From: Xanthomonas sp. Leaf148 | Lineage (GTDB): Bacteria > Pseudomonadota > Gammaproteobacteria > Xanthomonadales > Xanthomonadaceae | Length of the DNA stretch: 64,000 bases | Assembly: GCF_001423585.1 (NCBI RefSeq) | Contig: NZ_LMOP01000014.1 | Location: 1 to 64,000, forward strand | Reading direction: 5' to 3' | Part shown: positions 11,642-28,768 of the stretch, piece by piece | Position numbering within the stretch: position 1 is the first letter of the stretch | Layout of the letters: each line of letters opens with the position of its first letter | The notes under the pieces: model-generated | Databases searched by the model: none | What the model saw: the letters and a program-made list of their open reading frames with translations, nothing else | Told to the model about the DNA's origin: nothing | Made by a program: the position numbers and the translations under genes

Positions 11642-14353
11642 CTAGCCGAGGAAGGACATGGCATGGGTCAGCGAGCGGTCGGTCTGCAGATCCAGCACGC
11701 GGCCGTGCGCGTCATGGAACAGCAGATGGCCGGACTGCTCGCGCACCTTGACCGTGCTGCCCGCAGGCCAGTCCAGCGACGCAACGATGCCGCCGTCATG
11801 GTGGCGCACCACCAGATAGCGCGAGCCGTGCGGCCAATGCAGGCCAACCAGGAATCCCGCTTCAAGCGCCACCACGCTCGATCCATCCGGCGCGCCGAAT
11901 GCGGCACTGTGTTCGTGCAACCGGCACTGACGGGCACTGCCGATGTGCTGGTAGTGCAGGTAACTGTCGCCATTGGGATCGGTGCGCACCTCCGTTTGCT
12001 GCACGCTGCCGAGCCGATGCGCGAGCACCGGCGCTTGCGGGTCCACGCGCAGGGGATCGCGCGCTTTGAGGCGTCGCGCGGGCAGGCTGTAGGTCCAGTC
12101 CTCCAGGTACTCGCCGGCCTGCACCAGATACACCTCGCAATCGCTGAAGAATCCCGCCGCAATCACCGGCCCGGGCAGGTCGCCGACATGCCACAGCACG
12201 CTGTGCAGATCCTTGTCGGTATCGACCACCAGCAGCCGGTTGTCGACCACGATGCTCCAGCCGATTCCGCTGTAGCTGGGCGCGGCGTACTGCAGCGCAA
12301 TCTGACCAAGGTCGCGCACCGCATGGGTGATCAAATCCAGCCGATGCACGGTGGACACGCGCTCGCGGGGTGCGATTGCCAGGGCGACCTGCCCGCTGTC
12401 GGCGATGACCACACCAAAGGCAGGCGCCGGGTAGCGCCGTAGTAAGCGCCCGTGCGCGTCCACCACCGCCGCGCCGGCTTCGCCCAGGGCCAGCAGATAG
12501 CGGCGACCGGGGAGTGCCGCCACATCGTGGATGGCCGCCAGGCCGGCTTGCGGTGCCTGCAGTTGTAGCGGGGTGGCGCCGTCCCAGAGCTTGGATTGGC
12601 TGGCCGCGACCTGTGGTTTGAAGGTTGGAATATCGGCGCTGAGCAGGGGGTCCTTGGCCAGTTTCAGCAGCGTGGTCAGATCGCCGACGGACAGGCTGTT
12701 GCGGGCGAACGCATGATCGGCGGCAATCGCCGGCAGCAGTTGCCGCGCCAGTTGTTGCAGCGAGCGGTTGGGGGCAGCATCCACCAGCAGCGCGGCTGCC
12801 ATGTCGCTGCGCGGTACGGGATCGGCGCTGGGGTCTGCAAGCGCGGCGATGCGGTCTGCGTAGTGTTCCAGCGTGTCCGGCAACAGCTGCGCGCGTTTGA
12901 CCAGCGCGCGTGCGCGCAGCGTGCTGCCGGCCTGTTCTGCGGCCAGCAGCCACTGCGCGGCCTGGTGGCGCGCGTTGTGCAACGGCCACACCGCGTCCAC
13001 GGCGGCCAGCCAGTCGCCGGCCTGCACCAGCGCCTGGCCCCAGTCCAGCCGCAACGCATCGGCCAATGCGCGGTCGGTACCTTGCAGCAGCTGGATTGCG
13101 GCGGCAAAGGCGCCATCGCGGCGCGCGACCTGCACCGCACGCGCGTGGTCGCCGGCCAGCATCAGCAGCCGGATGATCATCGCCGCCGCCATGTCCCAGC
13201 CCAGCGCCAGCTCCGCGGCCTGTTTGTAACGGGCGTGCTTGACCAGATAGTCGAGCGCTTCCTGGCGCGCATTGAGCAATTCGGCCAGCACGAACACCGC
13301 ACGATCGATCTGGCCTTCGCGGTCCAGGCGCGCGAAGGCGCTGCGATAGGTCGCGCGCAGATGCGCCTGCAGCTCTTCGCCCAGGCCGATGCTGGTGCCG
13401 GCGCCACGCGTGCGCGACAGACTCAGGTCGCTGCGCCGCTGTGGCACCCCGAACGCCTGCCCCAAGGATTCGCCCAGGCCATCGAGCGGCAGCGCGTTGC
13501 GCAAGGCTTCGTCCAGATTGCCGTTTTCGAACTGGCGCAGCATCCGGCGCATGTAGGCGCCCTGATGACGTCCGACCAGGCTAGCCATCCGTGAGGCAAC
13601 CAGTGCGCGGGCCAGCCGCGTGCGCCAGGCCGATACCGATGCAGCGCCCCGGCGTGCCGGCACGGTCGTGTTCTGCCCGGTGGCTGCGCCAGACGCTGCG
13701 GATCCGTTCGATGCCGGTGCGTGCTCGCGGCTCAAGCTGCGCTGAGCGCGCGCCAGCAGGCGTTGCCACAGCGTGGTGTTCTGCACGGCGGGGCGCTGCG
13801 TCTTCAGCGAATGCAGGAACGCATCGCGCTCGGCGCTGGCTGGCGGGACGGCATTGCCCAGCAATTGCCGCAGCGGTTTGCCGCGCAGCCGGTCCACCTG
13901 CAGTGGTGGCTCGCTCGGGCTGCAGTCGTAGGGCATGTGCAGCGGGTAGCCAGACACGTCGATCGCCTCGGAAGGATCCAGCGCCACCGCGTGTTGCCAC
14001 TGCAAGGCGATCACCTGGGCGCCATGGACCAGGCCGATATCGGCCGGGGGCAACTGCGCCGCCTCGGCGGCGGTCAACGCGCCCGAGAACAGGCCGCCGT
14101 GCACCTGGCACAGCACCAGGCCGGTCGCCTGCTCGCAGACCAACGCACGCGGCGCGGCGAAGCACAGCACATCGCCGTCGGCAAAGCGCAGCGCCCGGCT
14201 ACCCGGTTGCCAGGCGCAGATAAGCCTGGCCAGGCGTTGTTCCGGGCTGAGCCACGCTGCCGAGAACCACAACGCCGACACCATCTGGCTGCCGTGCCAC
14301 AGCGGGTAGCGCACGCTGCCGCCCGCGTTGTCCGTGCGCGCCGGGCTAGTCAT
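11642..14353 (-). CDS. bpX6-like beta-propeller protein of MoxR ternary system
   Basis: A 903-aa protein, last gene of the four-gene MoxR operon. Residues about 25-160 form an N-terminal domain of the bpX6 type (VSALWFSAAWLSPEQRLARL, then DGDVLCFAAPRALVCEQ). The middle (about 260-560) is helical and repeat-like (AELALGWDMAAAMIIRLLM), resembling TPR or alpha-solenoid. The C-terminal third is a WD/PQQ-like beta-propeller (GVVIADSGQVALAIAPRER and similar blades). Its ATG overlaps the previous stop by 8 bp. Such proteins are known only from comparative genomics as partners of MoxR and vWA proteins; biochemical role is unknown. Assignment to bpX6 is from pattern memory. Confidence 0.7.
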   Translation of the reverse strand: MTSPARTDNAGGSVRYPLWHGSQMVSALWFSAAWLSPEQRLARLICAWQPGSRALRFADGDVLCFAAPRALVCEQATGLVLCQVHGGLFSGALTAAEAAQLPPADIGLVHGAQVIALQWQHAVALDPSEAIDVSGYPLHMPYDCSPSEPPLQVDRLRGKPLRQLLGNAVPPASAERDAFLHSLKTQRPAVQNTTLWQRLLARAQRSLSREHAPASNGSAASGAATGQNTTVPARRGAASVSAWRTRLARALVASRMASLVGRHQGAYMRRMLRQFENGNLDEALRNALPLDGLGESLGQAFGVPQRRSDLSLSRTRGAGTSIGLGEELQAHLRATYRSAFARLDREGQIDRAVFVLAELLNARQEALDYLVKHARYKQAAELALGWDMAAAMIIRLLMLAGDHARAVQVARRDGAFAAAIQLLQGTDRALADALRLDWGQALVQAGDWLAAVDAVWPLHNARHQAAQWLLAAEQAGSTLRARALVKRAQLLPDTLEHYADRIAALADPSADPVPRSDMAAALLVDAAPNRSLQQLARQLLPAIAADHAFARNSLSVGDLTTLLKLAKDPLLSADIPTFKPQVAASQSKLWDGATPLQLQAPQAGLAAIHDVAALPGRRYLLALGEAGAAVVDAHGRLLRRYPAPAFGVVIADSGQVALAIAPRERVSTVHRLDLITHAVRDLGQIALQYAAPSYSGIGWSIVVDNRLLVVDTDKDLHSVLWHVGDLPGPVIAAGFFSDCEVYLVQAGEYLEDWTYSLPARRLKARDPLRVDPQAPVLAHRLGSVQQTEVRTDPNGDSYLHYQHIGSARQCRLHEHSAAFGAPDGSSVVALEAGFLVGLHWPHGSRYLVVRHHDGGIVASLDWPAGSTVKVREQSGHLLFHDAHGRVLDLQTDRSLTHAMSFLG

Positions 14354-16193
14354 GGCCGGGTTGCTCGGCCTGGCCTTGCACGACCATCAGCGGGGTCAGC
14401 CCGCCATCGCCCAAGATCCAGGCCTGCCCCTGCAGGGTCACCAGTGCGACCCGCGCGCCATCGCTGGACACTGCCGCGGCGCTGATCTCGCTGGCGGCGC
14501 GATGCAGGGTCCGCCGGCCGCTGGCCCCTATGGCGAGCAGCGCGCGACGATCGGCGCGCAGCACCAGCAGCAGGCTGTGCTGCGGCGCGTCCGGGTCGCC
14601 GATCAGGCCGATCGGTCGGTCGCCGGACGCCACTATCGCCTCGAATTCCTGAAAGCCGTCGGCCGGGCCCCCGTGCAGCACCCGGTAAGCCAGCGAGCGG
14701 TCGCCGCCGGCCTGACGGCTTGCCAGTTCGAGGGCGATGGCGCCACGCCATTGGCCCTCCTGGACCAGGTTGCGCAGCAACACGACCGGCGGGCGCGACC
14801 CCAGCGCCAGCTGCAGGATGAGGTCCTGCTTGCCGTTGCGATGCAGGCGCAGCACCCGCAGTTCGCCAGCGACATGGGTGGCGTAGACCGCGTGTTCGGC
14901 ATCGCCTTGCGCCAGCGCCACCACCTGCCCGGCGAGCTCGCTGCCTTGCGCAACCCGCTGCCGCTGGTTGGTATCGCGCGTCCAGGTCATCAGCCGGCCG
15001 TGCTGGTCCCACAGCAGGAACCGCTGTGGCTTGCCGCCGCTGTTGAGCCACACGCATGGACGCAGCCGCACCTGGCCGGGTGCGGGGCAGAGGCTCTGCC
15101 CGCCGGCTTCGATGGAGCCGTGCATGCCATCGAGATTCCAGAACGCGGCTTGCTCCCCGAAAGCGACGATGCCGCCCACGTGCTTGTTCTGCGCCGTCAG
15201 GCACAGCGGCTGACCGCCCTGCGCCCATTGGTGGTAGCGCGGCGCCACCCGTTTGGCGATGTTGGCGGGCTGCACCTTCACCATCGCGCTGCGGTAGCCG
15301 TCTGCCAGCAGCAGCGCCACATGGCTGCCGTCCGGGCTGAACAGCGGCGCGTGGCGCAGCGAAAACTTGCCCTTGACCACGTGGTTTGCGGTATCGGCTT
15401 CGGCTGGGCGTTGCGTGTCGGTGAAGTGCCCAAGCAGCAGCTGCCTGGCGGCCATGCTGGCAGGCACCGGCAACAGGCTGCTGCGGGTGCCGTGGCGCGT
15501 TTGCAGCACCACCTGCAGATGCGCATCGGCCGCAGGCACGATGCTGGCCTGGTGGTGGAATGGCGCCACACGCACCGGTTGCGCGCCGATCCACCAGCAC
15601 TCGCTGGTGGTCGGCGTCGCGCTTGCGCACTGCGTGGCCCAGGCCTGTGCGTGCTGCGGGCCGGTCGCCTCGAAGGTGCGGCCCTGCAGTAGCTGTTGCA
15701 GCCGGGCAGGGCTTTCGGCGTCGTGCAGGTCGCCGGGCAGATGCGCCAGACCCCAGACAAAGCGCGCATTGGCGGCCTGCGCACGGCGTGCCAGCAGGAT
15801 CCACAATGCGATCTGTGCCAGACGCGGCGCGCCCCATTGCGCCGGACCGGCATCGAAGATCGCCACCAGGCGCGCATCGCGCGCGCGGGTCTGCATGCGG
15901 GGCACCAGGAACAGGTGCTCGGCATGCGCGGCGCGGCGCAGGAATTCCTCCGGCAGTGCGTCGGCCAGTGCCCACTCGCTCAGTAGCAGGTGGTCGTAGC
16001 TGCCGCGCCGACGCAGGTCGTCGATACCGTCCGGTTCGCTGTCGCCATCGCGGCGGCGCAGGCTGTCGCGGCCGAGCAAGGGGTCCAGACGCAACAACCA
16101 GATGCCGAGCTGGGAGGCGATTTCCGGGTCGAACCAGTCCAGCCACAGCCGCCAGGCCTGGAGCGGGGCGGGCACCTGCAGCGCGGCGCTCAC
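14346..16193 (-). CDS. vWA-like / beta-propeller protein of MoxR ternary system
   Basis: A 615-aa protein. Residues about 1-180 include an LLLSEWALADALPEEFLRRA segment followed by VAIFDAGPAQWGAPRLAQIA, which resembles the degenerate von Willebrand A domain seen in MoxR-vWA-propeller systems (the MIDAS DxSxS is not preserved). The remainder is propeller-like, with blades such as APLFSPDGSHVALLLADGY and ASEISAAAVSSDGARVALVT. The start is GTG at 16193, sharing four bases (GTGA) with the stop of the upstream gene; the open frame continues further upstream to 16592 but that part overlaps the neighbour in another frame and is GC-rich noise. Likely a cytosolic scaffold or client-binding partner of the MoxR ATPase. 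Confidence 0.72.
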   Translation of the reverse strand: MSAALQVPAPLQAWRLWLDWFDPEIASQLGIWLLRLDPLLGRDSLRRRDGDSEPDGIDDLRRRGSYDHLLLSEWALADALPEEFLRRAAHAEHLFLVPRMQTRARDARLVAIFDAGPAQWGAPRLAQIALWILLARRAQAANARFVWGLAHLPGDLHDAESPARLQQLLQGRTFEATGPQHAQAWATQCASATPTTSECWWIGAQPVRVAPFHHQASIVPAADAHLQVVLQTRHGTRSSLLPVPASMAARQLLLGHFTDTQRPAEADTANHVVKGKFSLRHAPLFSPDGSHVALLLADGYRSAMVKVQPANIAKRVAPRYHQWAQGGQPLCLTAQNKHVGGIVAFGEQAAFWNLDGMHGSIEAGGQSLCPAPGQVRLRPCVWLNSGGKPQRFLLWDQHGRLMTWTRDTNQRQRVAQGSELAGQVVALAQGDAEHAVYATHVAGELRVLRLHRNGKQDLILQLALGSRPPVVLLRNLVQEGQWRGAIALELASRQAGGDRSLAYRVLHGGPADGFQEFEAIVASGDRPIGLIGDPDAPQHSLLLVLRADRRALLAIGASGRRTLHRAASEISAAAVSSDGARVALVTLQGQAWILGDGGLTPLMVVQGQAEQPGHD

Positions 16194-16603
16194 GCGGCCT
16201 CCCAGCGCTGACGGATCTGCGCCACGACCTCGGCACGCGCCGGCAGCAACCGATGCAGCGGCAGCACCAGTGCAGGTAATCGCAGCAGCAACAGCGGCTG
16301 CGGCCCGTGTTGGCGGCGCAGCGCACGCTCCAGCAATTCCAGCGGAAGCGCGGGGCGTTCGGCGGTGGGCAACCACAGGCCAGCGGCGTCCGCGCGCGGT
16401 GCCACGTACTGCACGCCGTTGGCCCAGGGCAGCTGCGGCGCATGGCCGGTCAGCAGCAACGCCTGCGCGGTGGCGGTGACCAGCAAGTCCGCGCCGTCGG
16501 GCAAGCGCGCCCATGCCGCCAGCAACGCGCGTGCGGCCTCGCCCACGCCGATCACTCCCTGCGGGGCGACCGGCAGCGGCTCGTCCTGCCACGACCAGGT
16601 CAC
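16190..16603 (-). CDS. bpX5-like small protein of MoxR ternary system
   Basis: A 137-aa protein starting VTWSWQDEPLPVAPQGVIGV, followed by ADLLVTATAQALLLTGHAPQ and LPWANGVQYVAPRADAAGLW; this is the pattern of the bpX5 adaptor domain found between MoxR and vWA genes. The GTG start overlaps the MoxR stop as GTGA, and its own TGA overlaps the next GTG the same way, so all three are translationally coupled. The frame is open much further upstream, but that portion lies antiparallel to nothing and overlaps MoxR, so the short form is chosen. No enzymatic motif. Function inferred only from context. Confidence 0.7.
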   Translation of the reverse strand: MTWSWQDEPLPVAPQGVIGVGEAARALLAAWARLPDGADLLVTATAQALLLTGHAPQLPWANGVQYVAPRADAAGLWLPTAERPALPLELLERALRRQHGPQPLLLLRLPALVLPLHRLLPARAEVVAQIRQRWEAA

Positions 16604-17718
16604 GCGCCGCTGCCGATCTGCTCGATCAGGCGCGTGCGTTCGTGGGCCAGCTCGGCCGGCAGCGAGGCGGCCGTGAAGTTGGCATCGATCTCGCGCAGCA
16701 AGGCTTCGGCCATGGTGCGCAGGGCCGGATTGTGCTGATCCTGCAGGCAAGACTGGGCGGCCTCCACCAGCCGCGCAGTGCGCGAGAGCGGTTGCAGGGC
16801 GGCTTGTTCGACGGCCGCGCGCAGGGTGGGATTGGCCGCGGCGGCCAGGGTGCCGCGCAGCAGGTCCTGTGCGCTGGCTTGCTGCGCGCGCGTGGGCAGT
16901 ACGTAGAACAGCGGCCACAGATCGGCCTCGCTGGCCTGGGTGCGTCCAGCCAGCACGCAGGCGGCGGCGATCAGCCGCTGGGTCTTGACCAGGCGACGGT
17001 CCGACAGCTGCACGCCTGCGCCGCGCAATGTCCGGATCGCCGCGGCGAGCGCCGTGCGCGCGCCCTCCATGTCCACCGCACGCGCCTGTTCGCACAGCAG
17101 GTCCAGATCGGCCAGCCCGGCCACAGGCTGCAGCGGCGCACGCTCGGCCTGCCATCCGCCGGCCAGCAGCGCTTCGAGCTGATGGTCTGCCACCGGGTCG
17201 ACGAACAGATGCAGCAGGAAGCGGTCGCTGAAGGCTGCCAGCGCATCGTCTTCCGGCAGCGCGTTGGCCGCGCCCACACACAGGCGCAACGGGCAATGCA
17301 GGTCGGTCTGGCCACGCCGGAAGCGGCGTTCGTTGAGCAGCCCGAGCAAGGTGTTGAGGATGGCGGTGGAACCCAGGAAGACTTCGTCGAGGAAGGCGAT
17401 GTCCGCTTCGGGCAACATCCCGGTCACATCGGTCTGCACGCTGCCATCGCGCAATTTGCGCAGGTCCACCGGGCCGAATAATTCAGCCGGTTCGGTGAAG
17501 CGGCCGAGCAGATATTCGAAATAGCGGCCGCCCAATGCGGCGGCGACGCGCCGCACCACCGCGCTCTTGGCGGTGCCCGGCGGGCCGATGATCAACAGAT
17601 GTTCCTGCGCCACTGCTGCGAGCACGATCAATTCGGCCAGCTGATCGCGCTCGATCAATCCGGTGGTGGCGGCCTGGACGGTGGCGCGAATGCGCGCGGC
17701 GGCGGGATGGGCATGCAT
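16600..17718 (-). CDS. MoxR-family AAA+ ATPase
   Basis: A 372-aa AAA+ ATPase of the MoxR/RavA branch, a chaperone-like family that usually acts with vWA proteins. Walker A is IIGPPGTAKSAVVRRVA near residue 42, Walker B IAFLDEVFLGSTAILNTLL near 108, and sensor 1 around CVGAANALPEDD near 146. The start MHAHPAAARI at 17718 is preceded by AAGGA at a suitable distance; an upstream ATG at 17802 adds 28 residues with no family similarity. First gene of a four-gene overlapping operon, divergent from the STM4015-type operon 151 bp away. Confidence 0.88.
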   Translation of the reverse strand: MHAHPAAARIRATVQAATTGLIERDQLAELIVLAAVAQEHLLIIGPPGTAKSAVVRRVAAALGGRYFEYLLGRFTEPAELFGPVDLRKLRDGSVQTDVTGMLPEADIAFLDEVFLGSTAILNTLLGLLNERRFRRGQTDLHCPLRLCVGAANALPEDDALAAFSDRFLLHLFVDPVADHQLEALLAGGWQAERAPLQPVAGLADLDLLCEQARAVDMEGARTALAAAIRTLRGAGVQLSDRRLVKTQRLIAAACVLAGRTQASEADLWPLFYVLPTRAQQASAQDLLRGTLAAAANPTLRAAVEQAALQPLSRTARLVEAAQSCLQDQHNPALRTMAEALLREIDANFTAASLPAELAHERTRLIEQIGSGA

Positions 17719-17869
17719 GCGATCGGTCCTTCGAACAAAACGTGCGGTGCGGTGCAGGCACCGGTGACCGCCTGTGGAACGGGCAATGGAACGGTGGCGC
17801 ATGGCATTAACGAGGTTGCCATGACCGTGCGGTTATCCTGTGACCTCACCGAGCCAGGGAGGCAATGCA

Positions 17870-18781
17870 ATGACGATCGGCGAGTATTCGGAATTCTATC
17901 GCGGCAAGCGCGTGGTGGACTTCAGTGTGGACCAGCCCGCCAGCGGCGGCGACGTGGTGTACCGGCTGCGGCAGGAGTACGAAAGCGAAGGCAGCCAGGC
18001 GGAGTTGCTCGACAGCCTGCTGGCGCAGGTCGACCCGGCCAGCATCCAGGCATTGATCATCGGCCCGTGGCGCGAATCCTACGAGGAAGGCCCCAGCGGC
18101 TATCTGCAGCGGCTGATCGAACGCCGCGACGAACTGACCGCGCTGCGCGCGCTGTTCGTCGGCGACATGGTCTGCGAGGACTGCGAGGTGTCGTGGATCA
18201 TCCAGACCGACTACACCCCGCTGCTGGCCGCATTTCCGGCGCTGCAATCGCTGCGCGTGCGCGGTTCATCCAAATTGGTGCTGACCCCGTTCACGCACAT
18301 GCATCTGCAGGAACTGGCGATTGAATGCGGTGGGCTGCCGTCTGCCATCGTGCAGGCGATCGCCGACTCCACGCTGCCGGCGCTGCAACACCTGGAGCTG
18401 TGGCTGGGCGTGGAAGACTACGGTTACGACGGCGATCTGGGCACCTACCAGCGGCTGCTGGCAGCCATCGGCCCGGAGCGTCTGCGCTATCTGGGGCTGC
18501 GCAACGCCGCCAACACCGACGAATTGGCCACCTGGCTGGCCACCCAGCCGTGGTTGGGCAACCTGGACACGCTGGACCTGTCGCTGGGCACCATCGGCGA
18601 TGTCGGGGCGCGGGCGCTGGTCGAAAGCACGCAGCTGGGCCAGTTGCAGCGGATCGATCTGAGCCACCACTACATTTCTGCCGATTGGCAGGCCCGTCTG
18701 GCGACGCTGCCGGCCACGGTGATCCTGGAAGAGCACGAAGAGGAAGACGAAGACGAGCGCTACGTCGCTGTCTCCGAATGA
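17870..18781 (+). CDS. STM4015 family protein (LRR-like)
   Basis: A 303-aa protein of the STM4015 family. Leucine-rich-repeat-like segments occur from residue 120 on: FPALQSLRVRG, LPALQHLELWLG, LRYLGLRNAAN, LGNLDTLDLSLGTIGDVGA, QLQRIDLSHHYIS. The C-terminus is acidic (EEHEEEDEDE). A strong AGGGAGG ribosome-binding site lies before ATG 17870, and the frame from 17840 upstream of it is not needed. It is the first gene of a run of five STM401x-type genes. Its role is probably protein recognition within that system; this is inference. Confidence 0.85.
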   Translation: MTIGEYSEFYRGKRVVDFSVDQPASGGDVVYRLRQEYESEGSQAELLDSLLAQVDPASIQALIIGPWRESYEEGPSGYLQRLIERRDELTALRALFVGDMVCEDCEVSWIIQTDYTPLLAAFPALQSLRVRGSSKLVLTPFTHMHLQELAIECGGLPSAIVQAIADSTLPALQHLELWLGVEDYGYDGDLGTYQRLLAAIGPERLRYLGLRNAANTDELATWLATQPWLGNLDTLDLSLGTIGDVGARALVESTQLGQLQRIDLSHHYISADWQARLATLPATVILEEHEEEDEDERYVAVSE

Positions 18782-18782
18782 C

Positions 18783-19931
18783 GTGAGCGCGCATTGGGTG
18801 TTGGTGGGGCCGCGGGGCAGCCGCAGGATCGCCGCCCTGCAGCAGGCGTTGCAGGCGCAGGGGCAGCCCGCGGCGACGGTGTTCGACTATCTGCAGCTGC
18901 TGGACATCGCCGCGCCGTTGCAAGACTGGCTGGCGCGGCATCCGGCCGCGCTGGTCAAGCTGGAATCGCCGGGCGAAGCGTCGGCGTTGCATCAGGCGCT
19001 GATCGTGCGTGGTTGGCATTGCCTTGGACAGCCTGGGCCTGCGCCTGCGCCATTGGCGCATGGTGAACTGGCGCATCAGCACCTGTGGCATGCCGGGTTT
19101 GCGGATTTGCTCGCGACCTTGCCGGCGGCGCGCTATCTCAATCCACCGGCGGACCTGCTGGCAATGACCGACAAACTTGGCTGCCAGCAACGCTTGGCCG
19201 CGGCAGGGGTCAGCGTGCCGGCCCTGCTGGGCACGGTCGACAGCTACGCCGGCCTGCGCGAATGCCTGCAGGCCAGCGGCTGCACGCAGGCATTTCTCAA
19301 GCCGCGCTACGGCTCCTCCGGTGCGGGCGTGCTGGCGTATCGCTGGCATCGCGATGGACGCCAGATCGCCAGCGGTTCGGCCGAGCTGGTGGTGCAGGAT
19401 GGCCAGGTGCGCGTGTTCAACGCCTTGCGCCAGCGCCGCTATACCCGCACCGACGAGATCGCGCCGCTGGTCGATGCGATCGCCGCGCAGGGCGCTTACC
19501 TGGAACAGTGGATTCCCAAGCCGCGCGCGCCCGGCCTGCCCGGTTATCACTACGACCTGCGCGTGGTCGCGTTCGACGGTGCAGCACGGCAGCGCGTGGC
19601 GCGTGCCAGCCGCGGCCCGTTGACCAATCTGCACTTGGGCAACCGGCGTCTGCCGGCGCAGGCCTGGCAGAGCGCCGACGTGGATGCGGCGGTGGCCAGT
19701 ACCGTGGCGCAGGCGGCCAGCGCGTTTGCCGACTCTCGCATGATCGGTTTCGACCTGATCCAGCGCGCCGGGCGCTGCCACGTGCTGGAGGCCAACGGCT
19801 TTGGCGATCTGCTGCCGGAACTGCGCTGGCAGGGACGCACCACCTACGAAGATCAGGCAGCACTCGGCGCCGTCGCCGCCGCTCCTGGCATGACCGCCGA
19901 CACGCACCAGGAGGGCCTGCTGCATGGCTGA
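18783..19931 (+). CDS. STM4014 family protein (ATP-grasp-like)
   Basis: A 382-aa protein with a GTG start two bases after the preceding stop. An ATP-grasp architecture is visible: a pre-ATP-grasp N-terminus (residues 1-115), TDKLGCQQRLAAAGVSVPAL near 125, the lysine/glycine loop AFLKPRYGSSGAGVLAYRW near 172, and the terminal metal-binding segment CHVLEANGFGDLLPEL near 335. ATP-grasp enzymes ligate carboxylates to amines via acyl-phosphates. With two radical SAM enzymes next door this fits peptide or amino-acid modification, but no substrate is known. Overlaps the next gene by 8 bp. Confidence 0.82.
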   Translation: MSAHWVLVGPRGSRRIAALQQALQAQGQPAATVFDYLQLLDIAAPLQDWLARHPAALVKLESPGEASALHQALIVRGWHCLGQPGPAPAPLAHGELAHQHLWHAGFADLLATLPAARYLNPPADLLAMTDKLGCQQRLAAAGVSVPALLGTVDSYAGLRECLQASGCTQAFLKPRYGSSGAGVLAYRWHRDGRQIASGSAELVVQDGQVRVFNALRQRRYTRTDEIAPLVDAIAAQGAYLEQWIPKPRAPGLPGYHYDLRVVAFDGAARQRVARASRGPLTNLHLGNRRLPAQAWQSADVDAAVASTVAQAASAFADSRMIGFDLIQRAGRCHVLEANGFGDLLPELRWQGRTTYEDQAALGAVAAAPGMTADTHQEGLLHG

Positions 19932-20742
19932 GCTGCTGCCGGACATGCGCGCGATTGTTGGTGCGCACGACATCGTGCTGATCACCTTGGATACGCTGCG
20001 CTACGACGCTGCGCAGCGCTGTTTTGCGCGGGGCGAACTGCCGGTGCTGGCGCCGTATCTGCCGGCCGATGGCTGGGAGCGGCGGCACACGCCGGGCAGC
20101 TTTACGTATGCGGCGCACATGGCGTTTTTCGCGGGGTTTTTGCCGACTCCCGCGCGGCAGGGACCGCATCCGCGCCTGTTTGCGCTGGCCTTCGATGGCA
20201 GCGAAACCATCGTCGCGCAGACCCAGGTGTTCGCCGACAGCGGCACTATCGTCGATGGCCTGGCGCGCTGCGGATACCACACGCTGTGCATCGGCGGCAC
20301 CGGTTTCTTCAACAAGCGCAACGCGCTGGGCGCACAGTTGCCCGGCCTGTTTCGCGAAAGCCACTGGTCGCCGGAGTTTGGCGTCACCGCCGCCGATTCG
20401 ACCGAGCGCCAGGTCGCGCTGGCCTGCGCACGCCTGGGCGACCCCGCGCTGCGCGAGACTCGCTGTTTTTTGTTCATCAACGTCTCGGCCATGCATCAGC
20501 CCAATTGCCATTACCTGCCTGGCGCGGTGCGCGACGACCTCGATAGCCACTGCGCCGCGCTGCGCTATGTGGATGCCGCGCTGGCGCCGTTGTTTGCCGC
20601 ACTGCGCGCGCGCGGCGGTGCGTTTGCCATCGTCTGTTCCGACCACGGCACTGCCTACGGCGAGGATGGCTACCATGGCCATCGCCTGGCCCACGAGGTG
20701 GTGATGACCGTGCCTTATGCCCATTTCCTGGTGACCCCATGA
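19924..20742 (+). CDS. STM4013/SEN3800 family hydrolase
   Basis: A 272-aa member of the alkaline phosphatase/sulfatase superfamily. The N-terminal metal and nucleophile motif is DIVLITLDTLRYDAA (residues 17-31, Thr as candidate nucleophile). The C-terminal metal site is IVCSDHGTAYGEDGYHGHRL near residue 240. Between them is TPGSFTYAAHMAFFAGFLPT, a usual sulfatase-like feature. No signal peptide, so cytosolic. Overlaps its upstream neighbour by 8 bp and the next gene by 4 bp (ATGA). Probably removes a phosphate or sulfate, or transfers a phospho-group, within the STM401x pathway. Confidence 0.85.
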   Translation: MAELLPDMRAIVGAHDIVLITLDTLRYDAAQRCFARGELPVLAPYLPADGWERRHTPGSFTYAAHMAFFAGFLPTPARQGPHPRLFALAFDGSETIVAQTQVFADSGTIVDGLARCGYHTLCIGGTGFFNKRNALGAQLPGLFRESHWSPEFGVTAADSTERQVALACARLGDPALRETRCFLFINVSAMHQPNCHYLPGAVRDDLDSHCAALRYVDAALAPLFAALRARGGAFAIVCSDHGTAYGEDGYHGHRLAHEVVMTVPYAHFLVTP

Positions 20743-22100
20743 GTCTGCCTTCGCTGGCCGAATTGCTGCGCCAGCCGCCGTATCAGGCCTATTCGTACTC
20801 GTATCCGCACAAGACCAGTTACCGGCCGCTGCGGCCGGCCGTGCCGTTGTCGCAGGTCTGGGCCGACGAGCCCCGGCAGGCGCTGTTTCTGTACCTGCAT
20901 ATTCCGTTCTGCTCGTACCGCTGCGGGTTCTGCAATCTGTTCGCATTGGCGCGGCCGGCGCCGGCGCAGGTGGAGGCGTATCTGGCGCAGATGGAGCAGC
21001 AACTGCGCGCCACCGTGCAGGCATTGGGCACGCACCGCTTCGTGCGCTTTGCGATGGGCGGCGGCACGCCGAGCTATCTGGATCCGGCGCAATTGCAGCG
21101 CGTATTCGACATGGTGGACCGCCACGCGACGATCGCGCTGGACACCATTCCGGCCGGCATCGAGGTGTCGCCGGAAACCGTCGATGCCGAGCGGCTGCGG
21201 GTCTGCCGGCAGGCCGGCATCGATCGGGTCAGCATGGGCATCCAGAGTTTCAGCGCTGCCGAAGTGAGCGCACTGGTGCGGCCGCAGCAGCGCGACACGG
21301 TGGAGCGGGCGATCGCCATCATTCGCGCCCAGGACATTCCAACGCTGAATCTGGATCTGATCTACGGCATCGCCGGGCAGACCGTGGACAGTTTCCTGGC
21401 CTCCATCGACAGCGCGCTGCAGCATGCGCCCGAAGAACTGTATCTGTATCCGCTGTACGTGCGTCCGATGACCGGCCTGGGCCGGATAGAGGCCAAGGCG
21501 GGCGGGCGACGCAGCTTTGTGCTGCAACCCGAGCCGCTGGACGAGCGCCTGGTGCTGTACCGCGCCGGCCGCGACCATCTGCTGGCGGCCGGCTACACGC
21601 AGGTGTCGATGCGCATGTTCCGCGCCCCGCATGCGCGCGATAGCGACGCGCCGGTGTACTGCTGCCAGAGCGATGGCATGGTGGGCATCGGCTGCGGCGC
21701 GCGCTCGTATACCGCCGGCCTGCATTACTCCAGCGAATACGGGGTCAGCCGGCGCTCGGTGGCGGAGATTCTCGAGCACTATCTGGCGCGCGATCCGGCC
21801 AGTTTCGCCTGCGCCGACTACGGCATTGCGCTGGATGCCGACGATGCCATGCGGCGGCATGCGATCCAGTCGCTGTTGGTGTTTCCGGGGCTGGACTGCG
21901 ATGAGTTCCGTCAGCGCTTTGGCCGCGATTGCCTGGAGGCTTTGCCGCAGCTGCAGGAGTTGCTGGCGTTAGGGCTGGCGCAACGGCACGGAGCGCTGCT
22001 GGCGCTCACCGCCGCAGGCATGGAGCGGGCCGACACCATCGGCCCGTGGCTGACCTCGGCGCCGATTGTCGAGCGTATGCAGCAGTACCAGGTCGGGTAA
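20739..22100 (+). CDS. STM4012 family radical SAM protein (HemN/HemW-like)
   Basis: A 453-aa radical SAM enzyme. The cluster-binding CSYRCGFC near residue 57 gives the CxxxCxxC motif, preceded by FLYLHIPF as in HemN/HemW proteins. The GGGTPSYL motif (near 105) and DLIYGIAGQT (near 205) also match that branch. The C-terminal part contains an HemN-C-like region (SVAEILEHYLARDPASFACA). ATGA overlap with the preceding stop. It is not a housekeeping HemW: its context is the conserved STM4015-4011 run, so the substrate is expected to be different and is unknown. Confidence 0.9.
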   Translation: MSLPSLAELLRQPPYQAYSYSYPHKTSYRPLRPAVPLSQVWADEPRQALFLYLHIPFCSYRCGFCNLFALARPAPAQVEAYLAQMEQQLRATVQALGTHRFVRFAMGGGTPSYLDPAQLQRVFDMVDRHATIALDTIPAGIEVSPETVDAERLRVCRQAGIDRVSMGIQSFSAAEVSALVRPQQRDTVERAIAIIRAQDIPTLNLDLIYGIAGQTVDSFLASIDSALQHAPEELYLYPLYVRPMTGLGRIEAKAGGRRSFVLQPEPLDERLVLYRAGRDHLLAAGYTQVSMRMFRAPHARDSDAPVYCCQSDGMVGIGCGARSYTAGLHYSSEYGVSRRSVAEILEHYLARDPASFACADYGIALDADDAMRRHAIQSLLVFPGLDCDEFRQRFGRDCLEALPQLQELLALGLAQRHGALLALTAAGMERADTIGPWLTSAPIVERMQQYQVG

Positions 22101-22107
22101 GCGGCCG

Positions 22108-22959
22108 ATGCATCTGTCATTGCTCTATCGCGGCCGGCTGAGCAGCTGCAACTACGCCTGCGATTACTGCCCGTTCGCCAAGACCTACGACAGCCCCGCC
22201 GCGCTGCGTCGCGACGCGCAGGATCTGGCGCGGTTTGTCGGCTGGGCACAGGCGCAGACGCGGCCGTTGTCGATCCTGTTCACGCCCTGGGGCGAGGGGC
22301 TGGTGCGGCGGCATTACCGCGAGGCGATGGTGCAGCTGAGCCAGCTGCCGCAGCTACGCCGCGTGGCGATCCAGACCAACCTGTGCACGGGCATGCGCTG
22401 GCTCGACGCGGCCAATCTCGACCGCCTGGCGCTGTGGTGCACCTACCATCCCAGCCAGGTGACGCGCGCGGCCTTCCTGCGGCGCTGCCAGGCGTTGCGC
22501 GACCGCGGCGTGCGCCACAGCGTGGGCATGGTCGCCGCGCACGCGCACATGGACGAGATCGAAGCGCTGCGTGCGGCCTTGCCCGACACCACGCCGATGT
22601 GGCTCAACGCCTTCGATCCGCGTCCGCCCGATTACTACACGCCCGAGCAGGTGCAGCGCTTGAGCCGGATCGATCCACATTTCAGCTACAACCTCGCCCC
22701 GCCGCCCAGCTTCGGCGCGCCCTGCCTGACCGGCGAATCGGTGTTGTCGGTGGATGGCGACGGCACCGTGCGGCGCTGCCACTTCGTCGATACGCCGCTG
22801 GGCAATCTCTACGACGGCAGTTTCGCGACGCAGCTACGTACCCGCAGCTGCCCCAATGCGCGATGCGATTGCTTTATCGGCTATGCGCATCGGCCGGACC
22901 TGCCGTTCCAGGCCGACTATGCAGGCGGCGTGCTGGAACGGGTGCCGGCGACGGCGTGA
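22108..22959 (+). CDS. STM4011 family radical SAM protein
   Basis: A 283-aa radical SAM enzyme. The SAM cluster motif CNYACDYC lies at residues 14-21. A SPASM-like C-terminus is visible: DGDGTVRRCHFVDTPLGN near residue 220, then CPNARCDCFIGYAH near 250, which would hold an auxiliary Fe-S cluster. Enzymes with that layout commonly modify peptides. The start at 22108 is 7 bp after the previous stop. Last gene of the STM401x run; hairpin-forming sequence follows at 22992-23008. Confidence 0.9.
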   Translation: MHLSLLYRGRLSSCNYACDYCPFAKTYDSPAALRRDAQDLARFVGWAQAQTRPLSILFTPWGEGLVRRHYREAMVQLSQLPQLRRVAIQTNLCTGMRWLDAANLDRLALWCTYHPSQVTRAAFLRRCQALRDRGVRHSVGMVAAHAHMDEIEALRAALPDTTPMWLNAFDPRPPDYYTPEQVQRLSRIDPHFSYNLAPPPSFGAPCLTGESVLSVDGDGTVRRCHFVDTPLGNLYDGSFATQLRTRSCPNARCDCFIGYAHRPDLPFQADYAGGVLERVPATA

Positions 22960-25954: not shown

Positions 25955-26026
25955 CAACACGCATGCCGTACGCCAGCGCATGCGCTGCCAACAAAATCAA
26001 CAAGTTAACCCAATAGAATTAAAGTG

Positions 26027-26055
26027 TTGCTTTAACGTTAAAGTCTGGTTAGCAT
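26027..26055 (+). promoter_or_regulatory. Promoter with 14-bp perfect palindrome in spacer
   Basis: TTGCTT (26027-26032) and TAGCAT (26050-26055) are separated by 17 bp. The spacer region contains CTTTAACGTTAAAG (26030-26043), a perfect 14-bp palindrome overlapping the -35. This arrangement would allow a dimeric repressor to block RNA polymerase. Evidence is sequence pattern only. Confidence 0.5.
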
Positions 26056-26061
26056 GCCGCG

Positions 26062-26153
26062 TCCGATGTCAGTCGGAAGCTGTGCCACTCATTGTCCACC
26101 GGGCTTGTCCCGGTTTTCGAAGGGATCGGGCCTTGTGCCCGATCCTTTTTTTT
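26062..26153 (+). ncRNA. Candidate small RNA ending at an intrinsic terminator
   Basis: Runs from just after the promoter above to a strong terminator, about 92 nt, with no start codon in a credible frame. Three hairpins can form: CCGA/TCGG near 26064, ACCGGG-CTTGT-CCCGGT (26098-26114) and the terminator stem; the last two share the loop CTTGT. The start is estimated from the -10. It could be a trans-acting sRNA or an orphan leader; it does not match any RNA family I can name. Confidence 0.45.
26123..26153 (+). terminator. Rho-independent terminator
   Basis: Perfect stem GGATCGGGC / GCCCGATCC (26123-26131, 26137-26145) with loop CTTGT, followed by eight T. This is the strongest intrinsic terminator in the window. 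It ends either the candidate sRNA or read-through from pyrF. Confidence 0.9.
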
Positions 26154-26310
26154 GGCTTTCGTTGGTTACCGTAACTACATCGCCGCCTGATTGCGCGTAA
26201 TTTGCTGTCGCGGGCGTTCTCGGCTTGCTGCCGCTGCAAATCACCCCTGCATGGTCTCTAGACATGTGTGTCGCCCAGCAGGCATTCAGGGCATAGCCGC
26301 TCGTGGCATT

Positions 26311-26365
26311 AGCGGTAGATGATTGTTGGTAGATCGGCTCAACGTCCACGCAGTGGCTTATTGCC
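26311..26365 (-). pseudogene. Decayed copy of the halogenase 3' end
   Basis: The stretch aligns with 27275-27330, the end of the halogenase gene: AGCGGT.GATGA, TCGGC and CACGTCCACGCAGTGGCT-type blocks are shared, including ACGTCCACGCAGTGGCT identical over 17 bp. On the minus strand it reads AISHCVDVEPIYQQ against TISHCVDVMPTHQQ of the enzyme, with a one-base indel after that. It is a remnant with no open gene. Confidence 0.7.
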
Positions 26366-26562
26366 GTCGAAGAAATTTGCATCGCAATTGGCTGTCCTAG
26401 CCCAGCAGCAAGCAATCGCGGCTTGGATCTTCTTAAGCGTAGAGAATTCACGGAAAATTCTCAAAAAAAACACTGCAAATTTACTTAAATCCCGTTAAAC
26501 AAACAGTGCCGCTTTTCTTGCGGCTTCGTAAGGAATACTTCTAACCCATCAAGGAATGCAAT

Positions 26563-26964
26563 ATGAAAAGAATTCTCGGCGCCTCACCCGTTTTCTTTCT
26601 TATTTTCGTTGCTGGATCTTCATACGCTGCAACTTGCCTCAATTCTGATGGGCTGGTAGTTCCGTGCCCTGCACCGAATACGGTCCAAGCAATATTGCAG
26701 CCTGGCACGTTACCGAAATTCGTAGGCGTCCAGGCTGATATTTACATTACCGGCGGCAATACTGTCGACTACGCAAGTAACTTTAAAATTTATGCCAACG
26801 ACCAATACCTTTGCAACACAAGGGATGAATTTTACAGCGCAACTCCAATAAGGCATTGTAAGGCGACTATTCAGACTCCTGGTACTTATAGAATATCAGC
26901 AGTCGCAACATCACCAGGGCAAAACTTCAATCCACCGGCAAGCGTCTATGTGAATGTTGACTAG
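26563..26964 (+). CDS. Small exported protein, unknown
   Basis: A 133-aa protein with a clean signal peptide (MKRILGASPVFFLIFVAGSSYA, cleavage after SYA). The mature part is small, probably beta-rich, with four cysteines (ATCLNS, VPCPAP, YLCNTR, RHCKAT) that could form two disulfides. AAGGA precedes the ATG by 7 bp. The base composition is much more AT-rich than the neighbours and codon use is unusual (AAA, AAT, TTT frequent), a sign of recent acquisition. I do not recognise a family. It sits alone between the sRNA region and the halogenase gene. Confidence 0.75.
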   Translation: MKRILGASPVFFLIFVAGSSYAATCLNSDGLVVPCPAPNTVQAILQPGTLPKFVGVQADIYITGGNTVDYASNFKIYANDQYLCNTRDEFYSATPIRHCKATIQTPGTYRISAVATSPGQNFNPPASVYVNVD

Positions 26965-27253
26965 CCTATGGATTTTTGTAAATTAATTTTTGAATTAAAT
27001 TGGTTTTATTTAAAATTTTAACTGACAAGAATGGTCTAAAGTTGGAGGGCCCTCGGAGCTGAAGCCGAGCGCCCACTCAGAATGAAGTGTATCTGAGGTT
27101 GACTACCAAACCAAATTTGCAACACGCCGGCTACCTGTAATCAGACTGAAATTCCTGAAGAGCAAGTGGTATATCTCATCTTGCCCCCACTCGATGAGAA
27201 TCGAATTATTGCCAATTTCAGAAACATTATTTAATCTTGGATTAACTGCTCAC
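26965..27253. other. AT-rich gene-free interval
   Basis: Very AT-rich after the small exported gene (for example TTAATTTTTGAATTAAATTGG near 26981), then mixed composition. No gene or clear terminator was found; it marks the right part of an atypical island. Confidence 0.4.
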
Positions 27254-28768
27254 TTATGAAACCGCCTTGCAATAGCGGTCGATGAACTGCTGGTGGGTCG
27301 GCATGACGTCCACGCAGTGGCTGATGGTCTGCGCCACGCTGGCCAGGAAGCCTTCGGCGTCGGTGTCCGGTACCTGGTCCACCAGCGGGTGGTAGCCGGT
27401 CGGCAGGATGCCTTGTCCCACCATCACCTGCACCCAGCTGATCTCGGCGAACATCTCTTCGGCATTGCGATAGAACCGCCCGCTGTCGCGGAACAGGTCC
27501 AGCGTGGCCTGCAGCTCGGGGGTGATCGGCATGGTCCGGCAGTGCCGCCAGAACGCGCTGTCGTCGCGCTCGGTGGCGTGGTAGTGCAGCAGCAGGAAAT
27601 CGCGGATGCGGTCGAACTCGAACGCCAGCCGGTCGTTGTAGCGCTGCACCAGCACCGGGCTGATGCCTTGCCGCGGGAACAGCTCCAGCAACTTGGAAAT
27701 ACCGGACTGGATCAGATGGATGCTGGTGGATTCCAGCGGTTCCAGAAAACCGCTGGCCAGGCCCAGCGCGACCACATTGCGGTTCCAGCACTGCTTGCGC
27801 CGGCCGGTGGTGAAGCGCAGCGGGCGCGGGTCGCCCAAGGGCGTGCCATCCAGGTTGGCGAGCAAGCTGGCCGCGGCTTCGTCGTCGCTGATGTGCGCGC
27901 TGGAATACACGTAGCCGTTGCCGGTGCGGTGCTGCAGCGGGATACGCCATTGCCAGCCTGCTGCGCGCGCGGTGCAGCGCGTGTACGGCGTGGGCGGGCC
28001 GATCTTTTCGCAGGGCACGGCCAGCGCGCGATCGCACGGCAGCCAGTGGGTGAAGTCGTGGTAGCCGGTGTGCAACGCGTCTTCGATCAACAGGCCGCGA
28101 AAGCCCGAGCAATCGATAAACAGGTCGCCGGCGATGACCTGGCCGGACGCCAGTTGCAACGACACCACATGGCCCGACTCGGGGTGCAGTTGCACCTGCT
28201 CCACCATGCCTTCGATGCGGCGCACACCGCGCGCTTCGGCAAACCCGCGCAAGAAGCGCGCGTACAGCGAGGCATCGAAGTGATACGCGTAGGCGATGTT
28301 GGCCAGCGGCGAGGTGGCCGGTACATCGCCGGCCGAGGTCATGAACTTGCCGCGCGCGGCGGCCACGGTATTGAGCGTGTACGCGCCCAACGGCTGCGCT
28401 TTGCCGCGTAGCTGTTGCCTGATCCAGTATTGATGGAATGGCAGCAGCCCGAGCGGATGGCCGATCTGTGTGCCGAAACCATGGATATACGCGCTGCCCG
28501 GGCGTTGCCAGTCGACGAATTCGATCCCCAGCTTGAAGCTGCCCTGGGTCTGGCGCACGAACTCGGCCTCATCGATGCCGAGCAGGTTATTGAAGGCCTT
28601 GATGTGCGGCACGGTGGCTTCGCCGACACCCACGGTGCCGAGCTGCTCGGACTCGATCAGCTGCACGTTGAAGGTTGGGCCAAGCACGCGCGCGAAGGCG
28701 GCGGCCGCCATCCAGCCGGCGGTGCCGCCACCGACGATGACGATGTTGCGAAGTGGAGCGGGGATCAT
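27254..28768 (-). CDS. Flavin-dependent tryptophan-halogenase-like enzyme
   Basis: A 504-aa FAD-dependent halogenase. The dinucleotide-binding GGGTAGWMAAAAFAR is at residues 13-27, and the diagnostic WxWxIP motif occurs as AGWQWRIPLQHRTG near residue 272. The catalytic lysine region would be around VPHIKAFNN (residue 55). Such enzymes halogenate free indoles or tryptophan-like substrates using FADH2 and chloride or bromide, supplied by a separate flavin reductase, which is not adjacent here. In Xanthomonas this family commonly sits beside TonB-dependent receptors, as it does here. The true substrate is unknown. It is separated from the receptor gene upstream by a strong hairpin. Confidence 0.92.
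   Translation of the reverse strand: MIPAPLRNIVIVGGGTAGWMAAAAFARVLGPTFNVQLIESEQLGTVGVGEATVPHIKAFNNLLGIDEAEFVRQTQGSFKLGIEFVDWQRPGSAYIHGFGTQIGHPLGLLPFHQYWIRQQLRGKAQPLGAYTLNTVAAARGKFMTSAGDVPATSPLANIAYAYHFDASLYARFLRGFAEARGVRRIEGMVEQVQLHPESGHVVSLQLASGQVIAGDLFIDCSGFRGLLIEDALHTGYHDFTHWLPCDRALAVPCEKIGPPTPYTRCTARAAGWQWRIPLQHRTGNGYVYSSAHISDDEAAASLLANLDGTPLGDPRPLRFTTGRRKQCWNRNVVALGLASGFLEPLESTSIHLIQSGISKLLELFPRQGISPVLVQRYNDRLAFEFDRIRDFLLLHYHATERDDSAFWRHCRTMPITPELQATLDLFRDSGRFYRNAEEMFAEISWVQVMVGQGILPTGYHPLVDQVPDTDAEGFLASVAQTISHCVDVMPTHQQFIDRYCKAVS

Follow-up and report, generated by a model that had tools for sequence, protein, structure and literature searches.

A MoxR-vWA gene set and an STM4015-STM4011 cassette head to head in Xanthomonas: two modules that may have been coupled more than once

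In a 64,000-nucleotide stretch of the genome of Xanthomonas sp. Leaf148 (contig NZ_LMOP01000014.1, positions 1 to 64,000; hereafter the window), two gene sets, both functional orphans, stand head to head. The minus-strand set encodes bpMoxR, bpX5, a vWA-like protein and bpX6, and the plus-strand set encodes members of the families STM4015, STM4014, STM4013, STM4012 and STM4011 (collectively STM401x): a leucine-rich repeat (LRR) protein, an ATP-grasp ligase, a hydrolase and two radical SAM enzymes (Table 1). From sequence comparisons, we propose that these are two modules that evolve separately and have been coupled more than once, one being a MoxR-vWA machine and the other a cassette that would modify the C-terminal tail of STM4015. 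We give this reading a probability of about 0.5. The adjacency in the window is real and common to a group of Xanthomonas, and it is one case of a looser rule that ties STM401x genes to two classes of MoxR-vWA system. The tie to two MoxR-vWA classes, together with a seven-residue tail as the likely substrate, makes this reading directly testable.

The second coupling was found in the order of Myxococcus. There, an operon reads fvmX5, FtsH (AAA plus M41), fvmX7, bpMoxR, ivWA, two genes for WGR-LRR proteins of STM4015 type and STM4014, and it is faced by a unit composed of a HAD hydrolase gene, STM4013, STM4012 and STM4011. The first of the two WGR-LRR proteins scores 236 bits, the STM4015 cut-off being 275. 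With its ivWA, FtsH, fvmX5/fvmX7 and bpMoxR (L191/L210), this operon is, by gene content, an FtsH ternary system, i.e. a MoxR-vWA class other than that of the window, where neither ivWA nor FtsH had a match among the nine proteins. In 99 genomes of this order (Myxococcales, as judged from the genome at the centre of the sample), ivWA was present in 25, STM4013 over cut-off in 38 and STM4014 in 38. Comparison of coordinates placed STM4014 within ~3.2 kb of ivWA in 20 of the 25 ivWA genomes, the five others being G1033, G1016, G1027 and G991 (no STM4014) and G995 (other contig). Of 22 ivWA loci compared for gene order, 17 contained STM genes and five none. In those 17, as well as in three further Myxococcus-type loci, a WGR-LRR STM4015-like gene starts at most ~75 bp after the end of ivWA. 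Genes for fvmX5, FtsH, fvmX7 and bpMoxR lie upstream of ivWA where the stretch covers them, with a bpMoxR-ivWA distance of 0.8-2.8 kb in some loci. As the ivWA proteins of linked loci go down to 63% identity with M. xanthus ivWA, the gene order has persisted through real divergence. STM4013 was on the same contig and within ~20 kb of ivWA in all 20 linked genomes, and it accompanied ivWA in 21 of 25 genomes versus 17 of the 74 others (Fisher p 9e-8, kinship ignored). Taken together, the Xanthomonas and Myxococcus-order blocks mean that STM401x is coupled to two MoxR-vWA classes, and the wiring of the enzyme set into another MoxR system in myxobacteria suggests joint action of these two types of machine.

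The STM4015 protein of the window ends in RYVAVSE-COOH, behind an acidic linker. In a 13-row alignment, homologues end, also behind an acidic linker, in RYVAVGE, RYAAVGE, RFVALGE, RYPSLTE and similar sequences; the identity of the 12 other rows to the window protein is 31-41% in 10 and 54-63% in two. A terminal Glu was present in all 56 STM4015 copies that we extracted (one per locus, a few genomes being represented twice), and the motif [RK][YF]xx[VL]xE fitted 53 of them, the three others being from Salmonella (IYMNAMYTE), Methylobacterium (YRSIAVSE) and locus L193 (RYVAIGE). In 20 sequences chosen for their divergence, Arg was at position -7 in 19 and Glu at the end in 20. Taken as a 7-residue window, the tail ranked 20 of 297 for conservation, and the eight best windows were all inside the LRR body. 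The motif was found in 27 of 36 LRR matches from Myxococcus-order loci and two more had His instead of Arg; among the remaining seven, two were cut by the locus end, four were shorter second copies beside a tailed one, and one (L247) was outside any cassette. A strict DNA pattern for the tail had one match in each of 12 of 32 genomes, always at the end of an STM4015-type gene (12/12), and the reversed control pattern had one match in the 32 genomes. The strict pattern was unmatched in five genomes without STM4013 (G897, G898, G900, G1016, G1033). The nearest solved sequence to a profile of 13 STM4015-type sequences was that of PDB 2ra8, from Bacteroides fragilis (E 4e-85), the matched part of which ends in DDDYSYPMITE. 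A solved structure thus exists for a relative of STM4015, with a similar tail at the end of its sequence.

The locus had initially been thought to be perhaps of the type that makes ribosomally synthesised and post-translationally modified peptides (RiPPs). No conserved small open reading frame (20-110 aa) for a RiPP- or graspetide-type precursor was found at up to 600 bp from the cassettes of 20 loci, the search being confined to these flanks. Of the four matches that small frames gave across loci, three lie antisense to WGR-LRR genes and the fourth is short and downstream of bpX6. A separate precursor beside the cassette was therefore rejected, which makes STM4015 itself, with its conserved C-terminal tail, the likeliest protein substrate. 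The RiPP-like proposal is refined accordingly.

The two gene sets of the window also tend to share genomes. In 247 genomes of the window's own family (Lysobacteraceae, as judged from named relatives), 17 had bpX5 and 27 had STM4013 over cut-off; at E ≤0.001 STM4013 matched in 83, the remainder being mostly partial matches. Of the 17 bpX5 genomes, 15 contained both (Fisher p 6e-15, kinship ignored). Each cassette was intact as a block wherever the contig covered it in the stretches fetched from this family. Pseudoxanthomonas sp. 3HH-4 has the same head-to-head block, and a search there for five Xanthomonas flanking genes found none of them. In trees made from hand-chosen subsets (34 rows for bpX, 42 for STM), Pseudoxanthomonas grouped with Lysobacter Root916, near Xanthomonas, in the bpX tree (support 0.82) and beside Xanthomonas in the STM tree (support 0.94); judging from these sequences, one ancestral linkage and two joinings are both possible. 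With the Myxococcus-order coupling also in view, the pairing of bpX with STM401x is probably not due to chance.

Several observations weigh against the proposal of coupled modules, and some of them favour the alternative, which we consider somewhat unlikely, that the Xanthomonas adjacency results from chance or from a neighbourhood of island type and that the bpX system and the STM401x cassette function independently. Adjacency is rare: STM401x was beside only five of 70 bpX6 loci from public genomes (four Xanthomonas and one Pseudoxanthomonas), or five of 56 when the count was restricted to loci whose sequence extends 2 kb or more upstream of MoxR. Only four of the 15 own-family genomes with both sets, all from the window's genus, have them adjacent; the 11 others have them on different contigs (eight genomes) or 0.6-1.2 Mb apart on one contig (three genomes). 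A DNA query covering the junction matched on both sides in six of 35 Xanthomonas genomes and on the STM4015 side alone in four, the other matches being short and weak. In two Xanthomonas genomes (G411 and G478), the STM401x cassette lies between the same neighbours with no bpX genes in the stretch and no bpX5 genome-wide. In X. phaseoli (L093:7755-10005), the bpX5 and vWA-like genes are broken up among several frames; bpX6 and MoxR match there along their length in one frame each, and the STM401x genes show 83-95% identity. Because of these split genes, and because G411 and G478 are sisters of X. phaseoli in the STM tree (support 0.89), the simplest reading is that the bpX half has decayed or been lost beside a retained STM401x cassette.

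STM4013 was also searched for in 49 named bpX6 genomes (20 of the 70 loci being left out). It was over cut-off in 22, of which 13 belong to the myxobacterial group; the two sets were adjacent only in Pseudoxanthomonas, 0.66 Mb apart on one contig in one genome, and on different contigs, many of them short, in 20. It was absent from 27, among them X. bonasiae and NCPPB 1128, both Xanthomonas, and the genomes searched from Pseudomonas, Variovorax, Massilia and Duganella. One of 398 genomes drawn from the phylum, namely the window's own, had STM4013 at E ≤1e-40, and two of 274 drawn from the class had bpX5. These locus and genome counts, which take no account of kinship, indicate that the bpX half often occurs without STM401x, and STM401x without bpX. 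A single obligate bpX-STM401x system was therefore rejected; the initial annotation had read the locus as a probable single system. The neighbourhood conservation that it proposed to check is uncommon for bpX and STM401x, which are rarely adjacent, but a link of STM401x with MoxR-vWA systems in general has independent support (20 of 25 ivWA loci in the Myxococcus order).

The second coupling has its own weak points. In the Myxococcus order, STM4011-4013 lie outside the operon, in a unit of their own that faces it at a distance of up to 20 kb, and 18 of the 38 STM4014 genomes have no ivWA beside this gene. The vWA-like protein of the window, compared with ivWA using hhalign, gave a probability of 20% and E 0.001 over 62 columns only. 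As to the tail, the DNA pattern, a strict one, was unmatched in 15 of the 27 STM401x-bearing genomes searched. Five plasmid-borne cassettes (Methylobacterium, Streptomyces, Deinococcus, Paenibacillus, Salmonella) keep the terminal Glu and had no MoxR within the 6-7 kb examined on each side; the tail therefore needs no linked MoxR. What speaks against mere chance is the recurrence of the same head-to-head block in a second genus and in another context, the position of STM4014 and an STM4015-like gene directly 3' of ivWA in 20 of 25 Myxococcus-order systems, and the own-family co-occurrence given above.

RimK, the ribosomal protein S6 glutamate ligase, acts on a protein C-terminus. The STM4014 profile matched RimK (E 2e-6) and 1uc8 (E 5e-5), a lysine biosynthesis ATP-grasp enzyme that we take to be LysX. 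The relation to RimK is at the profile level only, and the substrate of STM4014 would be STM4015. K173, E241, D258 and N338 are among the STM4014 residues that were invariant in 8/8 sequences, and presumably have ATP-grasp roles. STM4013 matched nucleotide pyrophosphatases (NPP) and sulfatases; its D23, T61, D240, H241, H253 and H257 were invariant (8/8), which we presume, from family knowledge, to fit a metal-dependent enzyme with a Thr nucleophile. CxxxCxxC was kept in both radical SAM enzymes, STM4011 and STM4012 (6/6 compared).

In the mechanism that we envisage, the degenerate vWA-like protein and bpX6 of the first module would hold a complex that the bpMoxR AAA+ ring remodels. In the second module, STM4015 would present its C-terminal peptide on the acidic linker. 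STM4014 would add an amino acid or a peptide to the C-terminal Glu, or amidate it, STM4011 and STM4012 would carry out radical-chemistry modifications on the Tyr/Val region of the tail or on the added group, and STM4013 would trim or transfer a phospho- or sulfo-group. The LRR part (WGR-LRR in some lineages) would recognise a target, and the modified LRR protein would serve the MoxR-vWA machine as client, sensor or effector and be loaded, released or reset by it, possibly in conflict or stress. The more specific proposal that STM4015-4011 is a protein-tail modification system, whose modified LRR or WGR-LRR sensor is read or remodelled by at least two MoxR-vWA classes, is a tentative one, to which we give less than even odds. 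If correct, it would amount to a new mode of licensing for sensors or effectors of bacterial conflict or stress systems.

It is somewhat unlikely that the tail is no enzyme substrate and serves instead as a docking motif or degron, read by the MoxR-vWA machine, by FtsH or, as a scaffold, by the cassette enzymes. The tail is short, C-terminal, strictly placed and preceded by an acidic linker, as such a signal might be, and the Myxococcus operon includes the gene for FtsH, an AAA protein with an M41 protease. However, at least the terminal Glu of the tail is kept in the plasmid cassettes with no MoxR seen nearby, and a RimK-like ligase suits a C-terminal ligation. A cassette making a small molecule, such as a tetrapyrrole or a cofactor formed by the HemN-like radical SAM enzyme and merely sensed or bound by STM4015, would agree with the matches of STM4012 to HemW/HemN models and with the HAD-type hydrolases next to the cassette in Myxococcus, Undibacterium and Salmonella, but we consider it improbable, as it leaves the conserved tail unexplained and there is no obvious transporter or scaffold-building enzyme among the five genes.

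We also rejected the idea that the locus is a known anti-phage defence system. PADLOC gave no convincing defence-system match for the window proteins, only three partial ones: MoxR with PDC-M54A (E 2e-4) and mad8 (E 0.008), and residues 121-241 of STM4012 with PDC-M51A (E 1e-10).

Kaur et al. (2020) have described the beta-propeller MoxR-vWA ternary system; in the relevant passages (PMC7159879), its bpMoxR often has a P-loop of the form GXXXTAKS, its second component is a vWA domain followed by a C-terminal beta-propeller, and its third has a variable N-terminus, TPR and a propeller. The window resembles this system in its bpMoxR with a TAKS P-loop, its bpX6, its small accessory bpX5 and its divergent vWA-like protein, and differs from it by the head-to-head STM401x cassette. 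The main text of PMC7159879 contains neither 'ATP-grasp' nor 'alkaline phosphatase'. Its account of the FtsH ternary system refers to a radical SAM domain that is related to the Memo-Ammecr1 systems, and the passages concerned contain no linkage with STM401x; in our data this class is coupled to STM4015-like genes and STM4014 in the Myxococcus order. A parallel for the proposed tail modification is offered by FxSxx-COOH peptides with SPASM radical SAM enzymes, which passages of the same paper link to VMAP ternary systems. These share with the window a conserved C-terminal motif and a radical SAM enzyme beside a MoxR-vWA system, whereas in the window the motif is on a large LRR protein, and an ATP-grasp ligase and STM4013 replace the metallopeptidase.

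The STM4011-STM4015 cassette is known from NCBIfam, where the families are named without a function; the five members in the window all exceed the curated cut-offs and stand in the same order as in other lineages. STM4013 and STM4015 appear in table passages of PMC3844500 and PMC2784778, where no function is given, and ravA, bpX5 and bpX6 are listed together for a variable region of P. syringae in a passage of PMC9677677. The graspetide paper PMC8939145 has no instance of 'leucine-rich', 'LRR' or 'WGR', and PMC8195603 none of 'bpX'. A literature search, with supplements and preprints outside its reach, returned no function for the STM401x names, nothing combining radical SAM, LRR and MoxR, nothing combining LRR, radical SAM and ATP-grasp, nothing combining bpX with MoxR, vWA and propeller, and nothing on DUF6745; neither 2RA8 nor Q64V53 was mentioned among the papers listed. 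As far as this search extends, neither the coupling of STM401x to MoxR-vWA systems nor the STM4015 tail has been described before.

Table 1. Features of the two head-to-head gene sets and of the region between them (window coordinates)
Feature	Position	Strand	Evidence
bpX6 protein, 903 aa, third component of beta-propeller MoxR-vWA ternary system	11642..14353	-	PF19922 E 7e-53
vWA-like protein, 615 aa, degenerate MIDAS, possible C-terminal propeller	14346..16193	-	without Pfam match
bpX5, 137 aa	16190..16603	-	PF19921 E 2e-37
bpMoxR AAA+ ATPase, 372 aa, P-loop GPPGTAKS	16600..17718	-	PF20030 E 2e-90
Divergent intergenic region, 151 bp	17719..17869		between bpMoxR and STM4015
STM4015 family LRR protein, 303 aa	17870..18781	+	NF038076, 322 bits (cut-off 275)
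STM4015 C-terminal tail RYVAVSE-COOH, conserved; putative modification site	18758..18778	+	tail comparison
STM4014 family ATP-grasp ligase, 382 aa	18783..19931	+	NF038074, 330 bits (cut-off 175)
STM4013 hydrolase, alkaline-phosphatase superfamily, candidate active-site residues conserved	19924..20742	+	NF038075, 385 bits (cut-off 250)
STM4012 HemN-like radical SAM enzyme, CSYRCGFC	20739..22100	+	NF006067, 567 bits (cut-off 380)
STM4011 radical SAM enzyme, CNYACDYC	22108..22959	+	NF038073, 374 bits (cut-off 200)

Family matches and coordinates bore out the gene anatomy first described for the locus, i.e. its families, strands, overlaps and intergenic gap. The minus-strand genes overlap by 4, 4 (both GTGA) and 8 bp, in the order bpMoxR, bpX5, vWA-like, bpX6, and the plus-strand genes are spaced by +1, -8, -4 and +7 bp, from STM4015 to STM4011. 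A scan of positions 17500-18000 revealed no sigma-70-like promoter. The match of bpMoxR to PF20030 and its GXXXTAKS-type P-loop are those of the bpMoxR of the beta-propeller ternary system, and its closest solved sequence is RavA (E 6e-41).

The vWA-like gene had been annotated as a vWA-like propeller, a label that family matches did not verify. Neither Pfam nor NCBIfam gave a match for the protein itself, and no vWA family was among the matches of a 51-member alignment of its homologues. An Asp (D114) in a degenerate stretch resembling a metal ion-dependent adhesion site (MIDAS) was invariant (51/51), with the MIDAS Ser positions replaced. The propeller part is hinted at by weak WD40 matches of the profile (best E 0.016) and by matches of two of the 51 homologues to Gmad1, a beta-propeller family (best E 8.5e-5), the only others being two unrelated weak matches. 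The name bpX6 was corroborated by the strong match to its domain (PF19922), and the propeller attributed to it is hinted at by a single weak WD40 match (LST8) of profile residues 721-868 (E 0.075). The closest named bpX6 is that of X. dyei (96% identity; the listing may omit records very near the window). One bpX locus of myxobacterial type, with STM and ivWA genes like those of Myxococcus, comes from a genome titled Comamonas sp. KCTC 72670 (L142/G934), a title that looks wrong.

Some further features were seen around STM401x cassettes. In Myxococcus, Undibacterium and an Eremiobacterota genome (L191, L200, L207), STM4015 carries a WGR domain at its N-terminus, and the Xanthomonas STM4015 had no WGR match. 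Directly beside the cassette, Myxococcus-type genomes and Undibacterium have a gene for a HAD-type hydrolase, and Salmonella has one for a Cof-type HAD (L191, L192, L193, L200, L164). In Methylobacterium, Streptomyces and Deinococcus plasmids (L160, L161, L162), a DUF6745 gene, with a small unnamed gene, is beside or near the cassette and may represent a further partner. Another Streptomyces plasmid locus (L165:8980-9774) contains a lone STM4013-like gene. A NUDIX hydrolase and a lasso peptide B2 protein are encoded near it, and type I-E cas genes lie some kb away. Finally, the window also encodes a tryptophan halogenase (27254-28768; PF04820 E 3e-203), partly in a stretch of lower G+C content (26001-28000, 53%).

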